From an uncultured Flavobacteriales bacterium (lineage in GTDB: Bacteria; Bacteroidota; Bacteroidia; Flavobacteriales_D; Crocinitomicaceae), in the NCBI GenBank assembly GCA_913054135.1, contig CAJXJK010000001.1, positions 310,001 to 374,000 of the forward strand: DNA of 64,000 bases. The letters are read 5' to 3'. Positions within the stretch are counted from its first letter, which is position 1. Every line of letters begins with the position of its first letter. Shown piece by piece: positions 9,854 to 20,260 of the stretch. A program made the position numbers and the translations under genes. The notes beneath the pieces are model-generated. The model was not told where the DNA came from and did no database searches. It saw only the letters and a list, made by a program, of their open reading frames with translations.

Positions 9854-11440
9854 ATGCGCGTGAGAATTCTCATACTTCTAATTATTGGCCTTAGCTCTCA
9901 GATAGTTAAAGGACAACTCTATTTACCTAATCAACGCTATTACAACAATTCAGCTGAGAGACTATTTAGTAAACATGACTCTTTGAGAAATTTTCATAAC
10001 TCACATCAGAGCATGAAACCCTTGAGAGATTCTAGAACAAATAGTGACTCCATCTATCATAAAGGTGGCAAGCACTACTATTGGATTACCCAAAAATTAT
10101 TCAAAGAGAACTTCATCATCTTTAAGGGTGAAGACTTTTGGTGCTCAGTTGACCCATTACTTGATTTAGAAGGCGGAACAGACACTCACTCTGACAGCTT
10201 GGACTTTCTGTACTGGAATACGAGAGGCCTAAGAGTGCAAGCTAAATTCTTTGATAAAATCGCATTCACTACCTCTTTTTACGAAAATCAAGCCCTGGTC
10301 CCAACTTATGTCAGTGATTTTGTCAACCAATTTGGAGAATTGAGGCCAACCTCACTGGGATACAAGCAAGAACACGCAGTTATTCCTGGATACGCTAGAA
10401 CTAAGCCATTTAAAGTAGACGGCTATGATTTTGCCTTTGCCGAAGGTCAATTTTCTTATGTCCCCAACAAATACGTGAACTTTCAATTCGGAAACGGAAA
10501 TCACTTTATCGGAAATGGATATAGGTCTCTTTTACTTTCAGACTTCACCAACAACTATCCGTTCGCTAAAATTGAAACCAATCTTTGGCAAGATAGAATT
10601 CAATACACGGCGATATATGCCGTACAACAAAATCTTTACAGATTGAGTGCTTTCGAATCAGTAGAAGCAAGCTTTGAAAGAAAATTGGGAACCTATCATT
10701 ATTTAGATTTTGCAATCAATGAAAATATAACTATTGGATTGTTTGAAGGAGCTCAATGGAGACGAACTGATTCTACCGGATCTCATAATCCCAATTGGTT
10801 ATTCGCGAACCCAGTTCCATTCGTTAACGGCGTAATCATGAACAATACAACTGAAGGTTACAATCACATATTCGGATTAAACTTTGGATGGGCATTTCTT
10901 AAAAACCAACTCTATTCTCAATTGGTCTTAGACAATAAAAAACTTGGAGCAATTCAATTAGGGATTAAGTCATACGGTCAATTCATAAAAGGACTGGACA
11001 TCCAATTAGAATATAACTATGCGGCCAACAACACTTATATTGCTAATCAAAAAAGATACAACTATAGCCATAACAACCTACCCTTGGCGCATCCTCTTGC
11101 ATCAGGCTTCAATGAGGGAATCATTTTCTTAAACTATGAAAAGAATGAGTTCTTTGTTTCAAACAAGACTATTTATTACAATCAAATTTTTAACGAGACT
11201 GAAGCTGACGGAACAGATATATTAAATGATGAAATTGGACTTCTAACGGTATTAAATGAACAAAGAAATACGATCATCAACAACTTAGAGTTTGGATACC
11301 GATTTAATAGAACAAATAATTTACAAATTGCTATTGGCTGGATGTTCAGAGAAGAATACCTGAAGGAATTCAACAACACGACTTCGTACATATATGGTGC
11401 TATTAGAACGCCATTGAGAAATAAAACATTAGACTTTTAA
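9854..11440 (+). CDS. Outer-membrane protein, RemB/Wzi-like family (copy 1)
   Basis: Signal peptide; GNGNHFIGNGYRSLLLSDFTNNYPFAKIET shared with the 12531..14096 paralog. Confidence 0.6.
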   Translation: MRVRILILLIIGLSSQIVKGQLYLPNQRYYNNSAERLFSKHDSLRNFHNSHQSMKPLRDSRTNSDSIYHKGGKHYYWITQKLFKENFIIFKGEDFWCSVDPLLDLEGGTDTHSDSLDFLYWNTRGLRVQAKFFDKIAFTTSFYENQALVPTYVSDFVNQFGELRPTSLGYKQEHAVIPGYARTKPFKVDGYDFAFAEGQFSYVPNKYVNFQFGNGNHFIGNGYRSLLLSDFTNNYPFAKIETNLWQDRIQYTAIYAVQQNLYRLSAFESVEASFERKLGTYHYLDFAINENITIGLFEGAQWRRTDSTGSHNPNWLFANPVPFVNGVIMNNTTEGYNHIFGLNFGWAFLKNQLYSQLVLDNKKLGAIQLGIKSYGQFIKGLDIQLEYNYAANNTYIANQKRYNYSHNNLPLAHPLASGFNEGIIFLNYEKNEFFVSNKTIYYNQIFNETEADGTDILNDEIGLLTVLNEQRNTIINNLEFGYRFNRTNNLQIAIGWMFREEYLKEFNNTTSYIYGAIRTPLRNKTLDF

Positions 11441-11443
11441 AAA

Positions 11444-12538
11444 ATGAAAGATTATCATTTAGTACTGGTATTTATTACTGCCTTTAGTGTAGTCTTGCTA
11501 GCAATGCCTGCCCTTATTAAGGTGGCTAAACTGAAGCATTTGGTTGATGAACCTTCTGAAGACAGAAAGGTACACACGCGCTCGGTCCCAACTATTGGTG
11601 GCATAATGATTTTCTCGGCCTTCATGTTTTCGTGCTTACTCTGGTTTCCTGATCATGACGAAAATGCCTTGTTTGAGATTGAGCAATTTAACTACCTAAT
11701 GGCGAGCCTGATTCTATTGTTCTTTGTCGGGGTTAAAGATGATATTATTGGGATGTCTCCCACTAAAAAACTGATGGCACACCTAATGGTTGGATTCATT
11801 TTGGTAGTCATGGGTGACATCAGAATTACATCTTTTCATGGAATTTTAGGCATGGACATTGAATTCCCTGAATACGCAAGTTACCTCATTTCAATTTTCG
11901 TTTATATTGTAATTGTTAATGCTATTAACCTTATTGATGGTGTTGATGGATTGGCTTCAGGAGTAGGGATAATCGCTTCAATAGCATTCGGATTGTGGTT
12001 TGCAACTGCCGGAGACAAACATTGGGCTTTAGTCGCCTTTTCCATGTCTGGTGCATTACTTGGTTTTCTTGTTTTCAATTTTAATCCTGCCAGAATTTTC
12101 ATGGGAGATTCTGGCTCTCTTATTGTTGGAGCAGTAATTAGTGTATTAGCGATAAAACTCATTGAGTCAGACACTGCTTTTCTGGCACAGAAATTTGACG
12201 GCATGTTTCAAAACATATCAACCCCTGTGCTGGCAATGACTGCTCTCGCCTATCCTCTGCTTGATACACTACGAGTTTTTACCATTAGAGCAGCAAAAGG
12301 AAAATCACCTTTAAGTGCAGATAGAAACCACCTGCATCATAACATGCTTGATAGAAACCCTCGACACAAAGTAACAGTGATAGTCATCTACCTTTTCACA
12401 CTAATCATGATCAGCCAGGCTTTATTTATACAATTTGAAAATCCAAATATTAGCTTTTTTATAAGCGTAGGTTTCGCAATGTTATTTGTTTTTTATGTCT
12501 TCTTTATCCACCCTAAAAAGGAAAAGAAAAGTGCGTAA
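11444..12538 (+). CDS. MraY/WecA-family undecaprenyl-phosphate glycosyl-1-phosphate transferase
   Basis: VHTRSVPTIGGIMIF, NAINLIDGVDGLASGVG, FNFNPARIFMGDSGSL, ADRNHLHHNML. Confidence 0.92.
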   Translation: MKDYHLVLVFITAFSVVLLAMPALIKVAKLKHLVDEPSEDRKVHTRSVPTIGGIMIFSAFMFSCLLWFPDHDENALFEIEQFNYLMASLILLFFVGVKDDIIGMSPTKKLMAHLMVGFILVVMGDIRITSFHGILGMDIEFPEYASYLISIFVYIVIVNAINLIDGVDGLASGVGIIASIAFGLWFATAGDKHWALVAFSMSGALLGFLVFNFNPARIFMGDSGSLIVGAVISVLAIKLIESDTAFLAQKFDGMFQNISTPVLAMTALAYPLLDTLRVFTIRAAKGKSPLSADRNHLHHNMLDRNPRHKVTVIVIYLFTLIMISQALFIQFENPNISFFISVGFAMLFVFYVFFIHPKKEKKSA

Positions 12539-14096
12539 CATTCTTATTCTCATATCATTTATTAGTGCTACAGCATTTGGTCAAATAAAAAATGGCGTCA
12601 AAGACCAATTGCTATTGGAGCTAACTCCAGTTTCTAAAAAATTCTTGAACCTAAACTATCGCTCTCAAATTGATCAAGCTGGACTTTATTTTATTGACCA
12701 TAAACAAAATCACTCCTCTGTTAAGCCATTAATGCGCTTTACTAAAGATCACAATAACGGGATGTTTTTAAAGCTTCGCAAAAAGACCGACAATTTGAAA
12801 GTTAACAGAACAAGGCTTTACCCCTTAAGTGATTTGACAGGTGGCGTTCAATTATCAAACTCTTCGAATGCAGTTTTAAATGCGGGTCTTGGTGTTGGAT
12901 TTGATCATTCATCCACAAAATTTTTATTTACTGCAAAGTTTCTGCCATACTATGCACAAGGAGGAGCTTTGGCAGATTCGAGCAGAACACTCCACAATCA
13001 AGATTTTGGGTCTTCAAGAAGCATGACGAATAATATGTTTTACAGAGCTGAAGTGGTTGCGGCATATCAAGCCAACAAGTTCTTTACCTTCTCAGGAGGG
13101 TACGGAAAAAATTGGTTTGGTGAAGGTTATAGATCTCTTTTACTTTCAGACAATGCGGCAGCTCATCCATTTGCAAAAATTGAAACCTCTTTTGCAGGGA
13201 TAAAATATGTCAACTTATATAATGCTTGGAAAGACAATGCAAACAATCCCTATGACAGATCTCAAGACATTAATAAATTCTCGAGTATCCATTATTTGTC
13301 ATGGAATATTACTCGTGAACTTAACCTATCAATATTTGAGACGGTTGTTTGGCAAGGAAAAGACACTTTAACGAATAGAGGATTTGACGTCAACTACTTG
13401 AACCCAATTGTTTTTTACCGCCCCGTTGAATATGGTCTTGGGTCGTCTGACAATGTATTACTTGGAGCAAACCTCTCTTATAAATTTGACATAAAACACA
13501 ATGTTTACGCTCAATTTGTCTTAGATGAATTCTTATTATCTGAACTTCAAGCAAAATCAAAATGGTGGGCGAACAAGTACGGATATCAATTGGGATACAA
13601 AACAGCTAATCTCTTGGTTGACAACCTATATTTCCAGATAGAATTTAACGGAGTAAGACCATTCACCTATTCGCACAAATCTTCTCAACACGCCTATGGG
13701 CACTTAAACAGTTCAGTTACTCACCCAGTGGGAGCTAATTTCTATGAACTTTTAAATGTAGTATCCTATAAAAAAGACAAACATAGGTTTACGAACAAAA
13801 TGAATTTCATCTCTTACGGGGTTGATAGTTCTGCTACAACAAGTGTTGGTCAAGACATATTCAAATCATATACATTAAGAGACGGGAACTACGACCATTT
13901 AATAATGCAAGGCCAACGTCTTCAAGTATTCAATGAATCTTTTGTGTATGAATATGCTCTTTGGCCAGAAATTGAAATGTATCTTTTAGCCAAGTATGAC
14001 TGGCGTGCCGTGAACACGTCTCAAGGGCTGAATCACTTTCATACTTTTAGTGTCGGAATTAAGTCAAGAATTTGGAATAGTTATAACGACTTCTAA
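12531..14096 (+). CDS. Outer-membrane protein, RemB/Wzi-like family (copy 2)
   Basis: GTG start giving VRNILILISFISATAFGQ signal peptide; GKNWFGEGYRSLLLSDNAAAHPFAKIET. Confidence 0.6.
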   Translation: MRNILILISFISATAFGQIKNGVKDQLLLELTPVSKKFLNLNYRSQIDQAGLYFIDHKQNHSSVKPLMRFTKDHNNGMFLKLRKKTDNLKVNRTRLYPLSDLTGGVQLSNSSNAVLNAGLGVGFDHSSTKFLFTAKFLPYYAQGGALADSSRTLHNQDFGSSRSMTNNMFYRAEVVAAYQANKFFTFSGGYGKNWFGEGYRSLLLSDNAAAHPFAKIETSFAGIKYVNLYNAWKDNANNPYDRSQDINKFSSIHYLSWNITRELNLSIFETVVWQGKDTLTNRGFDVNYLNPIVFYRPVEYGLGSSDNVLLGANLSYKFDIKHNVYAQFVLDEFLLSELQAKSKWWANKYGYQLGYKTANLLVDNLYFQIEFNGVRPFTYSHKSSQHAYGHLNSSVTHPVGANFYELLNVVSYKKDKHRFTNKMNFISYGVDSSATTSVGQDIFKSYTLRDGNYDHLIMQGQRLQVFNESFVYEYALWPEIEMYLLAKYDWRAVNTSQGLNHFHTFSVGIKSRIWNSYNDF

Positions 14097-14118: not shown

Positions 14119-14229
14119 GTAATCTAGAATCATTCTATTTCCCAAGCACATCTCATTCATGGGATTTTTATTAACTTTGTGCCGATTTTGAGCGCATTAA
14201 GTTCGTTCCTTTATCCTTCAGAATAATTG

Positions 14230-15114
14230 ATGTTGGCAGAAGAAAAGACCATAGAGAAAGAAGTAAGCGTGAGCATTATGAAAGATATTGCCACCTTAAT
14301 GAAATTAAGACTTTCGTTTTTAGTTGTCATTTCTGCGGTTGCCTGTTTCTTTTTTATGGGAGGAGGATTAGACATTCGCCTATTTTATCTCATAGCCGGT
14401 GGTTTCCTTATCACAGGAGCATCTAACGGTTTTAATCAAATCATTGAAAAAGACTTAGACAAATTGATGCCAAGAACAATGAATCGTCCTTTGGCTCAAG
14501 GCAGAATGTCAGTTTTTGTTGCACTAATCATTTCAATAACCTCAGGAATCGCAGGAGCGGTTCTTCTATTTCAACTTAACTTTTTCTCAGGAATTCTTGG
14601 GATTCTCGCAATGGTACTTTATGCTGCCATATACACACCCATGAAGAAAATTTCTCCTTGGGCAGTATTTGTAGGAGCATTTCCAGGCGCGATTCCACCA
14701 ATGATAGGAGTTGTTGCACATACTGGAACCTTTGAATTAATTGCGGGTACAATGTTTTTAGTTCAATTTTTCTGGCAATTCCCTCATTTTTGGGCAATCG
14801 CCTGGGTAATGGATGATGACTATGCAAAAGCGGGATTCTCTCTACTTCCTATGAAGAGCAGAAAGAGTAAACAATCTGCATTCTTAATTGTATTGTACAC
14901 AGCCTTTATGGTTCCGGTTGGTGTTTTACCATGGGCATGGGGCTGGACGAATGATTGGTCATTGTATATAGGAACTATTGCAGGACTATGGTTCTTTGCA
15001 GTTGCTTATCGTTTTTACTTATCATTGGATGATAAACACGCAAGAAACTTGATGTTCGCTTCGTTTTTATACCTCCCTCTCATTCAATTTTTATACGTCT
15101 TCACTAAAATTTAG
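14230..15114 (+). CDS. ctaB: Protoheme IX farnesyltransferase
   Basis: LMKLRLSFLVVISAVACFF, GASNGFNQIIEKDLDKLMPRTMNRPLAQGRM, FWQFPHFWAIAWVMDDDYAKAG. Confidence 0.93.
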   Translation: MLAEEKTIEKEVSVSIMKDIATLMKLRLSFLVVISAVACFFFMGGGLDIRLFYLIAGGFLITGASNGFNQIIEKDLDKLMPRTMNRPLAQGRMSVFVALIISITSGIAGAVLLFQLNFFSGILGILAMVLYAAIYTPMKKISPWAVFVGAFPGAIPPMIGVVAHTGTFELIAGTMFLVQFFWQFPHFWAIAWVMDDDYAKAGFSLLPMKSRKSKQSAFLIVLYTAFMVPVGVLPWAWGWTNDWSLYIGTIAGLWFFAVAYRFYLSLDDKHARNLMFASFLYLPLIQFLYVFTKI

Positions 15115-15116
15115 CT

Positions 15117-16166
15117 TTGGCACAACACGAACTATCTCCCGAAATCAATGAAAAGGTTAAAAAGAACCTTTTAAAGATTTTCATTTTTACAGTGATCATG
15201 ATGTTTGCTGGACTTACAAGTGCTTATTTGGTGATGCAAGGTGATAGATTTTGGGTAAATGTTGAAATGCCTGACGGCTTTAAATTGGGTACCATTTCAA
15301 TATTTGTAAGTAGCGGATTCTTATTACTAGCGCGATATTTTGTAAGAAAAGGAGCCTTAAGAAATGTGAAAATGGTTCTGTTGGGTGCACTAATATCAGG
15401 TTCACTATTTGGAGTGTTTCAAATGCAAGGATTCTTTGATTTGTTTGCGAGCGGAAATGCTGTAACTGGTCCAATCATGACTGCAGAAGGGGCTTACGGT
15501 CAGTACTTCTCACTTACTTACGAAGGCAAAAATATTACCTACGATAACGATCAGTTTTATCTCAAGGGTGAGCCAATTAGTAAAGAAGTTCATAATGAAA
15601 TTAAGAAACTTGGTGGCGAATTAATGGATGGAGCCCAGAGTAAGACCAAAGATTTTGACCTTACTAATTATGGTGCAACATTGATGTTATATCACGAAGG
15701 AACTCCTGTTACATATTCAAACAACAAGTTAATGATGGATGGGAATGCTTTTCCTGACATCAAGATGATTAGCTTAGCTCGTTTTGGAGAGAACATGAAA
15801 AATGATAGAGGTGATTTTATCATGCAAGGAAAGTATGGCGTAGACTTTTGGATTTATCATAATGGAAAGAAATTGGATTATGAAAATCGTCAATTCTATA
15901 TTGATGGAAAACCTCTTTCTCCAAAATTAAGAGCAGATTTATACTCCCAACAGAATTCGGCGAGCTCATTTATTTATGCTTTCACTGCAGTTCATTTAGT
16001 ACACTGGATAGGTGGAATCATTGCTCTTTTAGTAGTGTTTATCAGGGGGTTAAAAGAAAAGTATACTCAATCGAATTATTTGGGCATTTCATTAGGTTCA
16101 ATCTATTGGCATTTTTTGGGTATTTTATGGCTTTATTTATACCTATTTTTAATTTATATTCATTAA
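15117..16166 (+). CDS. Cytochrome c oxidase subunit III with a large loop insertion
   Basis: TM core (AGLTSAYLVMQGDRFW..., FIYAFTAVHLVHWIGGIIALL, YWHFLGILWLYLYLFL); ~160 extra residues between TM segments. TTG start. Confidence 0.85.
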   Translation: MAQHELSPEINEKVKKNLLKIFIFTVIMMFAGLTSAYLVMQGDRFWVNVEMPDGFKLGTISIFVSSGFLLLARYFVRKGALRNVKMVLLGALISGSLFGVFQMQGFFDLFASGNAVTGPIMTAEGAYGQYFSLTYEGKNITYDNDQFYLKGEPISKEVHNEIKKLGGELMDGAQSKTKDFDLTNYGATLMLYHEGTPVTYSNNKLMMDGNAFPDIKMISLARFGENMKNDRGDFIMQGKYGVDFWIYHNGKKLDYENRQFYIDGKPLSPKLRADLYSQQNSASSFIYAFTAVHLVHWIGGIIALLVVFIRGLKEKYTQSNYLGISLGSIYWHFLGILWLYLYLFLIYIH

Positions 16167-16190: not shown

Positions 16191-16961
16191 ATGGCAGGAG
16201 CAGCTTCTAAAGAAATCGATTCGGCTACACTTTGGGGTGGAGGATACACTTCACCATTCTCAGTAAGCTACGGAAAACTGATGATGTGGTTTTTCTTAGT
16301 GTCAGATGGTTTAACTTTTGGTGGATTATTATCCGCTTTAGGATTCGCAAAATTCGCGAACGTCAATGACGCAACATCTCACTGGCCTACGGGTGAAGAG
16401 GTATTTACTCACCTTCCGGGAACTCACGCACATGCACCATTGATCTATGTTGCATTAATGACATTTATCCTTATTATATCTTCGGTAACAATGGTATTAG
16501 CCGTTGAAGCTGGACATAGAATGGACAAGAAAGCTGTTATCAAATGGATGGCTTGGACTGTTGTTGGTGGTTTAATTTTCTTAGGATCTCAGGTTTGGGA
16601 GTGGTCAACTTTCATTGCAGGATATGACGGAGACATTTCAACTTGGGCCGATAACGGCACGCTCTCCCACTCCCCTTATGGTGGTCAGTGGGTCATGGGA
16701 GTTGATGCTCACGGACACGAAGTAAAACAAATGGTCACTTACGGGCCAACATTATATGCTAACTTCTTCTTCTTTATTACTGGTTTCCACGGATTCCACG
16801 TATTCACAGGAGTACTATTCAATTTCTTGGTATTAAGAAATGTAATAAGAGGAGTTTATCACAAAAGAGGACATTACGAAATGGTTGAGAAAGTTGGTCT
16901 TTACTGGCACTTTGTCGATTTAGTTTGGGTATTTGTATTTACCTTCTTCTATTTGGTATAA
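16191..16961 (+). CDS. Cytochrome c oxidase subunit III (second copy)
   Basis: MMWFFLVSDGLTFGGLL, VWEWSTFI, NFFFFITGFHGFHVFTGVLFNF, LYWHFVDLVWVFVFTFFYL. Confidence 0.93.
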   Translation: MAGAASKEIDSATLWGGGYTSPFSVSYGKLMMWFFLVSDGLTFGGLLSALGFAKFANVNDATSHWPTGEEVFTHLPGTHAHAPLIYVALMTFILIISSVTMVLAVEAGHRMDKKAVIKWMAWTVVGGLIFLGSQVWEWSTFIAGYDGDISTWADNGTLSHSPYGGQWVMGVDAHGHEVKQMVTYGPTLYANFFFFITGFHGFHVFTGVLFNFLVLRNVIRGVYHKRGHYEMVEKVGLYWHFVDLVWVFVFTFFYLV

Positions 16962-16988: not shown

Positions 16989-17366
16989 ATGGTTAGAGAC
17001 GATATTGTAGAATATTCATTAGACGGTCACCACTCAGAAGAAGCTGGTAAAAAGATCAGATCTAAAATCTTTAAAGTAACTGCACTTCTTTCAGTTGTAA
17101 CGATTGTTGAGGTTGCTATTGGTTGGTTTTTACCAAGAGCAGAAGTTGGTGGACTAGGATCTTGGGGTTGGTTCGGTATCGAGACTACCTACATGATTTT
17201 AACTGTTCTTAAAGCAGCTTACATTATCTTAGTTTTCATGCACCTTGGTGATGAAAGAAAAGCATTAAGAAGAATGATTTTATGGCCTTACATAATCTTC
17301 ATCTTATATTTGGTTTTCATTCTAGTTACTGAAGCATATGCAGTTAATGCTGCTTGGTTAAGCTAA
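16989..17366 (+). CDS. Cytochrome c oxidase subunit IV family protein
   Basis: Three TMs, TVLKAAYIILVFMHLGDERKALRRMI, position after COX3. Confidence 0.85.
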   Translation: MVRDDIVEYSLDGHHSEEAGKKIRSKIFKVTALLSVVTIVEVAIGWFLPRAEVGGLGSWGWFGIETTYMILTVLKAAYIILVFMHLGDERKALRRMILWPYIIFILYLVFILVTEAYAVNAAWLS

Positions 17367-17390: not shown

Positions 17391-18125
17391 ATGCCGGGTT
17401 GGAAAAGAGTAGCCACGATATTACTTATCGTACTTGGGCCTGGATCTATCATCTATTTCTTAGCAAAGGGATTAAAGAATAAGTTTGTAGAGTTACCTCA
17501 TTTGGGGGAATACGACTATTCTTATGATGCCGATAGCAATATTGTAGATTCTTCTGTATTCATTTTACCAGAGTTTGAACTGACCAAGTTTGATGGCTCT
17601 GTGATAAACAGAGATTCAATAAAAGGGAAATTCATTGTATTAAGTACAGTTCAGCAAACTTGCCCGAAGATGGAAGAATGCGGAATGTCTTTCTATCATT
17701 TCAATGAGCTGTTTTTTAGCAAAATGGTTAAAAACCAAGGTAATTACGGGAATGTAAAAGTGCTATCCATCCTTACTGACGAAAACGGATTACCTATCAA
17801 TGAAGGTCCATCTGAACTTTTACTAGAAGAGATGGAGGAATATGATTCTGACATTTGGTGGATGTGTTATGGTGATCCGACACCTTTGTTCTCATGGGAT
17901 TATTATGGTAAAAATTTCATGAAGCACGAAGCAACTCAGCGGGATGGGGAAATTGGAGACTGGGCCTTTGTCAGCAGTTTGGTTCTGATTGATTCAGAAG
18001 GAAGTGTAAGAGGCGTTTCAGGAGCAAAAAAAGATTCTGATATTCGTAATTTCTTTGATATGCTTAAACTCTTAAAGAAAGAGGATTTTGACAAGCAGTG
18101 GGAAGAAAAGAAGAAGAATAACTAG
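17391..18125 (+). CDS. SCO-like thioredoxin-fold protein (divergent Cys motif)
   Basis: FDGSVINRDSIKGKFIVLSTVQQTCPKMEECGMSF...VKVLSILTDENG; late VLIDSEGSVRGVSG. Confidence 0.7.
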   Translation: MPGWKRVATILLIVLGPGSIIYFLAKGLKNKFVELPHLGEYDYSYDADSNIVDSSVFILPEFELTKFDGSVINRDSIKGKFIVLSTVQQTCPKMEECGMSFYHFNELFFSKMVKNQGNYGNVKVLSILTDENGLPINEGPSELLLEEMEEYDSDIWWMCYGDPTPLFSWDYYGKNFMKHEATQRDGEIGDWAFVSSLVLIDSEGSVRGVSGAKKDSDIRNFFDMLKLLKKEDFDKQWEEKKKNN

Positions 18126-18138
18126 AAAAAAAGCTGCT

Positions 18139-18984
18139 CTAGTAAACCCAATGTTTACTTAGCTTATCTAAATCTGAATTAGCACTGTACCCTAAACTCA
18201 TCTGCAAAGCCGACAAGCAGACATCCTCATATTTACTTCCGGGCCAAACACTTATAGGTACCAGCTTAATCACATCATTTTTGTAAAAAGTAAAGTTTCC
18301 CTTTATGATTTGAATTTTTGGAGTATCAAGAAGAGAACAATTGCACATATGCTCGCCGTTCTTCCATATCTCAATCTCCTTTATCCTTGAATTTTCATCA
18401 AAGGTTTTTTGACTCTTCGCATATCCATTCACTAAACTCAATTCAAATGATTCCTGAATTGGCAAGCTGTCTGAAATAACTTCGCAAGCTTTCTTCTTTC
18501 CTAAACGACCATACATAATAGTATTACAATCAAATTCTAATGTAATAGCGTTTTTGCCTAAATCATTCACTAGAAATGCCGTTGAGAATAATGGATCCTT
18601 TGCGTTTGAAAAGGGATAGCTGTCATTATCGATATCCACTTTATAAGTATAACCCAAAAACTCGGTAAATCTCATATCAGCCTCTGTACAACACCTCCCC
18701 CACATTTTATCGGTCCAGGCTTCAACTTCATCTACTGATTGATCGTACAATTCAAACAAACTTTGATTTTCGCTTTGAAATTCTCCTACTTGTTGCAAGG
18801 CCTCTTGATCTATTACAGCTCTTAATTTAGGCAATTGTGCTTTTTCTTTGTCAGATTCAAAAATTACTGCGCTCCTATCCGCAGTATCAAAATGACCTTC
18901 ATTAACATCATCCTTCAAAGGTTCATTACATGAACAAATCACTAGTGTTGATAGAAGAATAAACTGACTTAGTTGAAATGGCAT
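18139..18984 (-). CDS. Hypothetical lipoprotein
   Basis: N-terminal signal with lipobox (LVICSCNE); no recognised domain. Confidence 0.6.
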   Translation of the reverse strand: MPFQLSQFILLSTLVICSCNEPLKDDVNEGHFDTADRSAVIFESDKEKAQLPKLRAVIDQEALQQVGEFQSENQSLFELYDQSVDEVEAWTDKMWGRCCTEADMRFTEFLGYTYKVDIDNDSYPFSNAKDPLFSTAFLVNDLGKNAITLEFDCNTIMYGRLGKKKACEVISDSLPIQESFELSLVNGYAKSQKTFDENSRIKEIEIWKNGEHMCNCSLLDTPKIQIIKGNFTFYKNDVIKLVPISVWPGSKYEDVCLSALQMSLGYSANSDLDKLSKHWVY

Positions 18985-19053
18985 AGAAATAGAACTATTA
19001 TGTACAAAAAAAAGTATTTTTGCAACCTAATCCAACAATTGAATTTAATAATT

Positions 19054-19704
19054 ATGAAGCACTTATTTTTCGCATCTGTATTGCTAATTTTTGGCTCGTG
19101 TGGTGAAACGAACACAAACACAACAGAAGAAATAACTGAAGATTCATATACACCATTTCCATACTTAGGTCAACACGAAGTTGATTTTGGAAGTGATGAC
19201 ACCATCTATCACACTGTGCCTTCATTCGTCTTTACAAATCAGGATAGTGTAATCATAACCAATGATGATGTGAAAGGCAAAGTTCACCTGGCTCATTTTT
19301 TCTTCACTTCATGTCCTGCAATATGTCCTGCTACAGTAGCACAAATGCAAAGACTACAGGAAATGACTTCAGATGTAGAAGAACTGGTAATCCTTACTCA
19401 CACAATTGACCCAGCAAGAGATACCATTCTAAAAATTAGAGACTACATAGAAGAACGTGAAATAAATACTCATAATTGGCACTTTTTACGCGCAGAACGC
19501 GAATACACACATACTTTAGCAAAAGAAGGGTACATGATTAATGCAATGGAGGACGAGGAAGCAGACGGAGGATTTTTACATTCAGAACACTTCGTACTCA
19601 TTGATAGAGAAGGACATGTGAGAGGGCTTTATAAAGGAACAGATACCGAAGAAGTAGACCAATTAGCAAAAGACATTAAAATCCTTATTGAAAATGAGTA
19701 CTAA
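19054..19704 (+). CDS. SCO1/SenC family copper chaperone lipoprotein
   Basis: Lipobox IFGSCGE; HFFFTSCPAICPATVAQMQRLQEM CxxxC motif; HSEHFVLIDREGHVRGLY. Start moved from 18973. Confidence 0.9.
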   Translation: MKHLFFASVLLIFGSCGETNTNTTEEITEDSYTPFPYLGQHEVDFGSDDTIYHTVPSFVFTNQDSVIITNDDVKGKVHLAHFFFTSCPAICPATVAQMQRLQEMTSDVEELVILTHTIDPARDTILKIRDYIEEREINTHNWHFLRAEREYTHTLAKEGYMINAMEDEEADGGFLHSEHFVLIDREGHVRGLYKGTDTEEVDQLAKDIKILIENEY

Positions 19705-20260
19705 AATAGATATTGAAAAGAAATACAAGCCTTACGTAATCATCCTGTCAATCGCAGTTCCGACAGTCGTTGCTGTACTATTTGGGGTAAAAATTGAAGG
19801 CGTAGATTTATCTTTTTTACCCCCGATTTATGCGGGCATTAATGGTTTAACGGCCATCTTGTTAATTGCAGCTGTATTAATGATTAAAAAAGGTAAAAAA
19901 GAAATACACCAAAAATTAATGACGACGGCTGTTGTTTGTTCTTTATTGTTTTTGGCTATGTATGTTGCTTATCACATGACTTCAGATAGTACAATCTATG
20001 GAGATTCTAATCATGATGGGGAACGAAGCATTGAAGAGACTGCAGTTGTAGGAAAGTCTCTGTTGGTTTACACCTTCATTCTAATTAGTCACATCATCTT
20101 AAGTTTAATAGTAATGCCATTAGTGATGATGACTTATTTAAAAGGATGGGCAAGCAAAGTTGAGGCTCACAAAAAATGGGCTAAGAAGACTTTTCCTATT
20201 TGGCTTTATGTAGCCGTTTCAGGAGTGGTGGTTTATTTTATGATTAGCCCTTATTACTAG
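19694..20260 (+). CDS. DUF420-like membrane protein
   Basis: Multi-TM; LPPIYAGINGLTAILLIAAVLMIKKGKKEIHQKLM. Confidence 0.8.
   Translation: MSTKIDIEKKYKPYVIILSIAVPTVVAVLFGVKIEGVDLSFLPPIYAGINGLTAILLIAAVLMIKKGKKEIHQKLMTTAVVCSLLFLAMYVAYHMTSDSTIYGDSNHDGERSIEETAVVGKSLLVYTFILISHIILSLIVMPLVMMTYLKGWASKVEAHKKWAKKTFPIWLYVAVSGVVVYFMISPYY

Follow-up and report, generated by a model that had tools for sequence, protein, structure and literature searches.

The oxidase gene cluster and its subunit III genes

A cluster of cytochrome c oxidase genes was found in the stretch of Crocinitomicaceae DNA analysed here (64,000 nucleotides, hereinafter referred to as the window), with the following features:

14227-15114, + strand: UbiA-family prenyltransferase, by position haem O synthase (CtaB/COX10)
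15117-16166, + strand: COX3-1, five-transmembrane (5-TM) cytochrome c oxidase subunit III with a three-unit insert (349 aa, TTG start; based on ORF, Pfam, AlphaFold2 and full-length homologues family-wide)
15138-15449, + strand: N-terminal TM helices 1-3 of COX3-1 (model residues 8-41, 53-77 and 81-111; AlphaFold2)
15477-15638, + strand: repeat unit 1, predicted beta-meander and long helix (residues 121-174)
15648-15815, + strand: repeat unit 2, predicted beta-meander and helix, the least conserved unit (residues 178-233)
15816-15965, + strand: repeat unit 3, the most conserved and the closest to the single unit found in related families (residues 234-283)
15957-16157, + strand: C-terminal TM helices 4-5, the part recognised by Pfam COX3 (model residues 281-312 and 322-347; AlphaFold2, Pfam)
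16191-16961, + strand: COX3-2, second subunit III paralogue without the unit (256 aa)
16989-17366, + strand: COX4_pro, prokaryotic cytochrome c oxidase subunit IV
18973-19704, + strand: SCO1/SenC copper-delivery protein
19688-20260: DUF420 protein, in the oxidase accessory cluster

The accessory cluster (UbiA, two COX3, COX4_pro, SCO1/SenC and DUF420) corresponded to the usual Bacteroidota set. Among the core subunits of respiratory oxidases, COX3 is one of the best conserved, and COX3-1 was identified as COX3 by profile, fold and neighbourhood. Its match to Pfam COX3 (PF00510) covered only the C-terminal residues 284-347 (32.1 bits against a curated cut-off of 23.8), a Foldseek search with the full model returned COX3 chains at the top (probability 1.00, best E 1.7e-4), and the genes for UbiA, the second COX3, COX4_pro and SCO1 adjoined it. 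The cluster also contained a 244-aa ORF (17391-18125) without a Pfam match at 0.001, which by eye resembled a divergent SCO-like thioredoxin-fold protein. Elsewhere in the window, two ORFs with related motifs (9854-11440 and 12486-14096) appeared by eye to encode Wzi-like outer-membrane proteins, again without a Pfam match at 0.001, and a by-eye WecA-like ORF was located between them.

The neighbouring COX3 had been described as lacking the insert of COX3-1. This held for the repeat unit, none being present in COX3-2, but not for the position as such: COX3-2 carried its own unrelated loop of ~45 aa at the matching place between TM3 and TM4, which was much larger in some relatives. Among Bacteroidia (L223, L224, L233, L237, L238 and L241), COX3-2 ranged from 226 to 350 aa through this loop, which was not homologous to the COX3-1 unit. 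A swap of the COX3-1 insert with the COX3-2 loop was ruled out as a strict rule by a family member in which both proteins were large (L241; 351 and 350 aa), and by the missing unit homology of the COX3-2 loops.

Only one COX2 gene was identified in the genome, placed immediately after a complete actA-F operon and before COX1; the operon was assigned to alternative complex III (ACIII) by gene order and profile matches. Since the sole COX2 lies directly behind actA-F, COX3-1 most likely serves an ACIII-linked aa3 oxidase, as its physical subunit. The C-terminal extension of the NrfD-like ActC (L222:5840-7630, G000:C18) matched NCBIfam NF009040 (E 6e-23), a tail common to some NuoE, L21, S2 and phasin entries.

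COX2 (L222:10265-11548, G000:C18) contained an insert of ~55 aa, predicted to be helical, in its CuA domain between the motifs NPLG and DVIHS. The gap between these motifs was 83-99 residues with the insert and 27-33 without it, although the motif anchor used for this comparison could not be placed in roughly half of the sequences. The insert was present in members of the order where measurable and in families f6, f10 and f15, and absent from f7, f11, f18, f21, f43 and f45. Strict coupling between the COX2 insert and the COX3 unit was not seen, as f6 had the COX2 insert without the unit, and f11 and f43 had the unit without the COX2 insert.

Three repeat units between TM3 and TM4

The insert of COX3-1 comprised ~165 aa between TM3 and TM4 and held three homologous units of ~50 aa. 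The original prediction of a three-unit insert in the first COX3 was correct in its coordinates (15480-15956, residues 122-280), motif pattern and spacing, with YG motifs at residues 127, 185 and 240, i.e., 58 and 55 aa apart. Local alignment scores between units were 50 (units 1 and 2), 87 (units 1 and 3) and 58 (units 2 and 3), against shuffle maxima of 43-47 (2000 shuffles each). Profiles of the units from 66 non-redundant relatives matched one another with E-values of 1.3e-10, 1.3e-12 and 7e-13 for the same pairs. A search with an HMM of the unit recovered all three in COX3-1 (121-174, 178-233 and 234-283; i-E 1e-16, 8e-14 and 5e-20), these values not being independent for the sequences from which the HMM was partly built. 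Chance or low-complexity repeats were ruled out by the shuffles and the profile comparison, and an assembly or frame artefact by full-length homologues in isolates and many independent genomes.

AlphaFold2, run with an alignment of 66 sequences, predicted full-length COX3-1 with a mean pLDDT of 92 and a pTM of 0.81, showing five TM helices and the three units between TM3 and TM4. The same units were obtained from the insert alone (pLDDT 87). In the model, each unit consists of a meander of four strands, of which the last is short, and then a helix, which in unit 3 continues into TM4. A repeated fold was thus predicted for the insert, in support of the extra-membrane repeat domain that had been proposed for the oxidase. 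Canonical COX3 has an established topology in which the loop joining helices V and VI is periplasmic. In COX3-1, Lys and Arg were abundant at the N-terminus and in the TM2-TM3 loop (positive-inside pattern). By COX3 topology and this pattern the insert is predicted to be periplasmic, as expected for that loop.

In the family alignment of the insert, there was no Cys-rich column and no His column above 50%, and the net charge ranged from -12 to +11 across relatives. The absence of conserved ligands argues against a redox or metal domain, and the insert is unlikely to carry electrons. No second copy of the repeat domain was found in the genome. A scan of genome contigs with a single sequence gave no match.

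No relative of the insert or unit was detected in Pfam, NCBIfam, PHROGs or PDB sequences, and no Foldseek match of the insert model was obtained at E <= 0.001. Capture of a known domain was ruled out by these empty profile, PDB-sequence and Foldseek searches. Matches to recA were dismissed because they added up many weak repeats, all with independent E-values above 100. Further, no description of this COX3 insert was found in the literature (open-access papers only). The repeat unit defines a domain missing from the profile libraries searched here.

Distribution and growth of the insert

A full-length search of 150 Crocinitomicaceae genomes (25 genera) gave a match in 146, including all 114 of good quality. 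Nearly all matches spanned the full query, with most of the few shorter ones coming from fragmented assemblies. Named relatives with a match belonged to Crocinitomix, Putridiphycobacter, Brumimicrobium, Lishizhenia, Fluviicola and other Crocinitomicaceae, and the isolates among them included Crocinitomix catalasitica, C. algicola, Putridiphycobacter roseus and two Brumimicrobium species; some MAG titles among the matches named other genera, probably through mislabelling.

In several other families of the order, COX3-1 had one unit and a length of 240-270 aa. Longer forms were identified in f77 (one unit and extra sequence, 296-303 aa), f75 (one clear and two weak units, 366 aa) and f68 (413-429 aa, with an extension of ~85 aa besides two or three units that could be recognised), all within the order. 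Elsewhere in the class, single units were found in f5, f10, f11, f13, f24, f43 and f47; many families there had zero units, and most other Bacteroidia were without any. Forms without any insert were 188-200 aa long. In the wider phylum outside the class, no unit was seen, as judged by profile coverage and frame length. Most Bacteroidota COX3 proteins compared thus lacked the three-unit form, and the insert is a lineage trait fixed across Crocinitomicaceae, within a series of 0, 1, 3 and more units, rather than a one-off insertion.

The profile of the single unit from other families matched unit 3 best (E 2.7e-13), followed by unit 2 (8.7e-9) and unit 1 (4.2e-7), and unit 3, which adjoins TM4, was the best conserved. 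Because unit 3 is most like the single-unit form, in-place duplication is the most likely origin of the insert, starting from the one unit that the TM3-TM4 loop already had in COX3-1 of related Bacteroidia. Units 1 and 2 would then have arisen by duplication N-terminal to unit 3. When the tree was built from the TM core only, unit number needed 8 changes between five states. A single origin of the Crocinitomicaceae form was not rejected (p-AU 0.12), although it is not recovered in this tree. Since the TM-core tree is unrooted, the direction 0 to 1 to 3 is taken from the lack of units in the outer phylum.

The dN/dS of the insert was mostly 0.02-0.1, like that of the TM core (pairs above 80% identity), with the nearest pairs resting on few changes and many dS values saturated. 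Selection on the insert is strongly purifying.

Possible roles and comparison with known systems

We tentatively favour, at a little below even probability, a role of the insert as a periplasmic, cofactor-free contact surface on the aa3 oxidase, with ACIII and/or the adjoining CuA domain of COX2 as the likeliest partner. A single unit in the TM3-TM4 loop would have been duplicated into three four-strand-plus-helix units, and the resulting module would offer other proteins a non-redox contact surface at the outer side of the oxidase. By contacting ACIII and/or the neighbouring CuA domain, it may stabilise, orient or tune the ACIII-aa3 supercomplex that delivers electrons. Both role and partner are what we infer from the position on the oxidase surface, the conservation and the contact of a 5-TM subunit III with ACIII in Flavobacterium johnsoniae, which together make the contact role the most likely one. 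In the F. johnsoniae ACIII-aa3 supercomplex, the 5-TM subunit III mediates the contacts (PMC8361435), which have not been tied to the TM3-TM4 loop, where the Crocinitomicaceae insert is located. The COX2 insert of the order, which lies in the periplasmic domain of COX2, is also in favour, the same enzyme face thus being elaborated twice. In contrast, the oxidase of most Bacteroidia has no unit at all, the COX2 insert and the COX3 unit can each occur without the other, and the variable charge of the insert gives no hint of a single conserved surface for electrostatic docking. In addition, the TM3-TM4 position may be just insertion-tolerant, as the COX3-2 loops vary there too.

The strongest rival, which we consider somewhat unlikely, is that the units brace the oxidase by packing periplasmically on COX2, COX3-2 or COX4, aiding assembly or stability without contact to ACIII. 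Subunit III in general stabilises the nascent oxidase (PMC9145763), the best conserved unit is the one beside TM4, and the lineage-specific periplasmic additions on COX2 and COX3-2 could pack against the units; however, single-unit and zero-unit oxidases manage without a three-unit insert, and the COX2 insert and the COX3 units do not strictly co-occur. The repeated changes of unit number within the order, together with the variation of the paralogue COX3-2 at the matching loop, would also suit a largely non-adaptive expansion, in which a tolerant loop gained copies and later selection merely preserves the fold. Retention of three units in 25 genera and a dN/dS near that of the TM core argue against this explanation and leave it improbable. 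Slightly more improbable still is a surface for docking or filtering a mobile electron carrier (ActE-type monohaem cytochrome or soluble cytochrome c) near CuA: the units are predicted to be periplasmic, as is the CuA domain, but no charge is conserved among them, and the dispensability of ActE was seen in a species outside those examined here for the insert.

An extension of the contact role, which we regard as unlikely, is that the number of units (0, 1, 3 or more) sets the coupling between aa3 and ACIII, COX3-1 of the order being a modular periplasmic coupling arm. If this were true, supercomplex contacts would evolve by repeat duplication, which is undescribed for a core oxidase subunit. 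The family-fixed repeat domain and the graded unit numbers in relatives offer a natural experiment on the cohesion of the ACIII-oxidase supercomplex.

Among known systems, the top Foldseek row for the insert model was Ascaris pepsin inhibitor-3 (PDB 1f34_B), which was not significant (E 0.21, TM-score 0.15). Unit 1 had a weak local match to signal peptidase I (PF10502, Peptidase_S26; E 0.0025-0.013, best 18.2 bits against a cut-off of 22.9), found in only 3 of 66 family members, below the curated cut-off and not covering any catalytic part; it was taken as chance or a generic beta-hairpin. COX3-1 itself is a known kind of protein, with a repeat unit undescribed in the libraries and open-access literature searched. 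It resembles other 5-TM COX3 proteins (PF00510; bo3 CyoC, actinobacterial CtaE and F. johnsoniae aa3 subunit III) in its five TM helices, its C-terminal COX3 signature and the location of its gene beside a second COX3 and COX4, whereas those forms have a short periplasmic TM3-TM4 loop in place of ~165 residues with three units. It also resembles the single-unit COX3-1 of other Bacteroidia families, which carries a homologous unit of ~50 aa in the matching loop, with one copy in a protein of ~235-270 aa instead of three copies in 349 aa.
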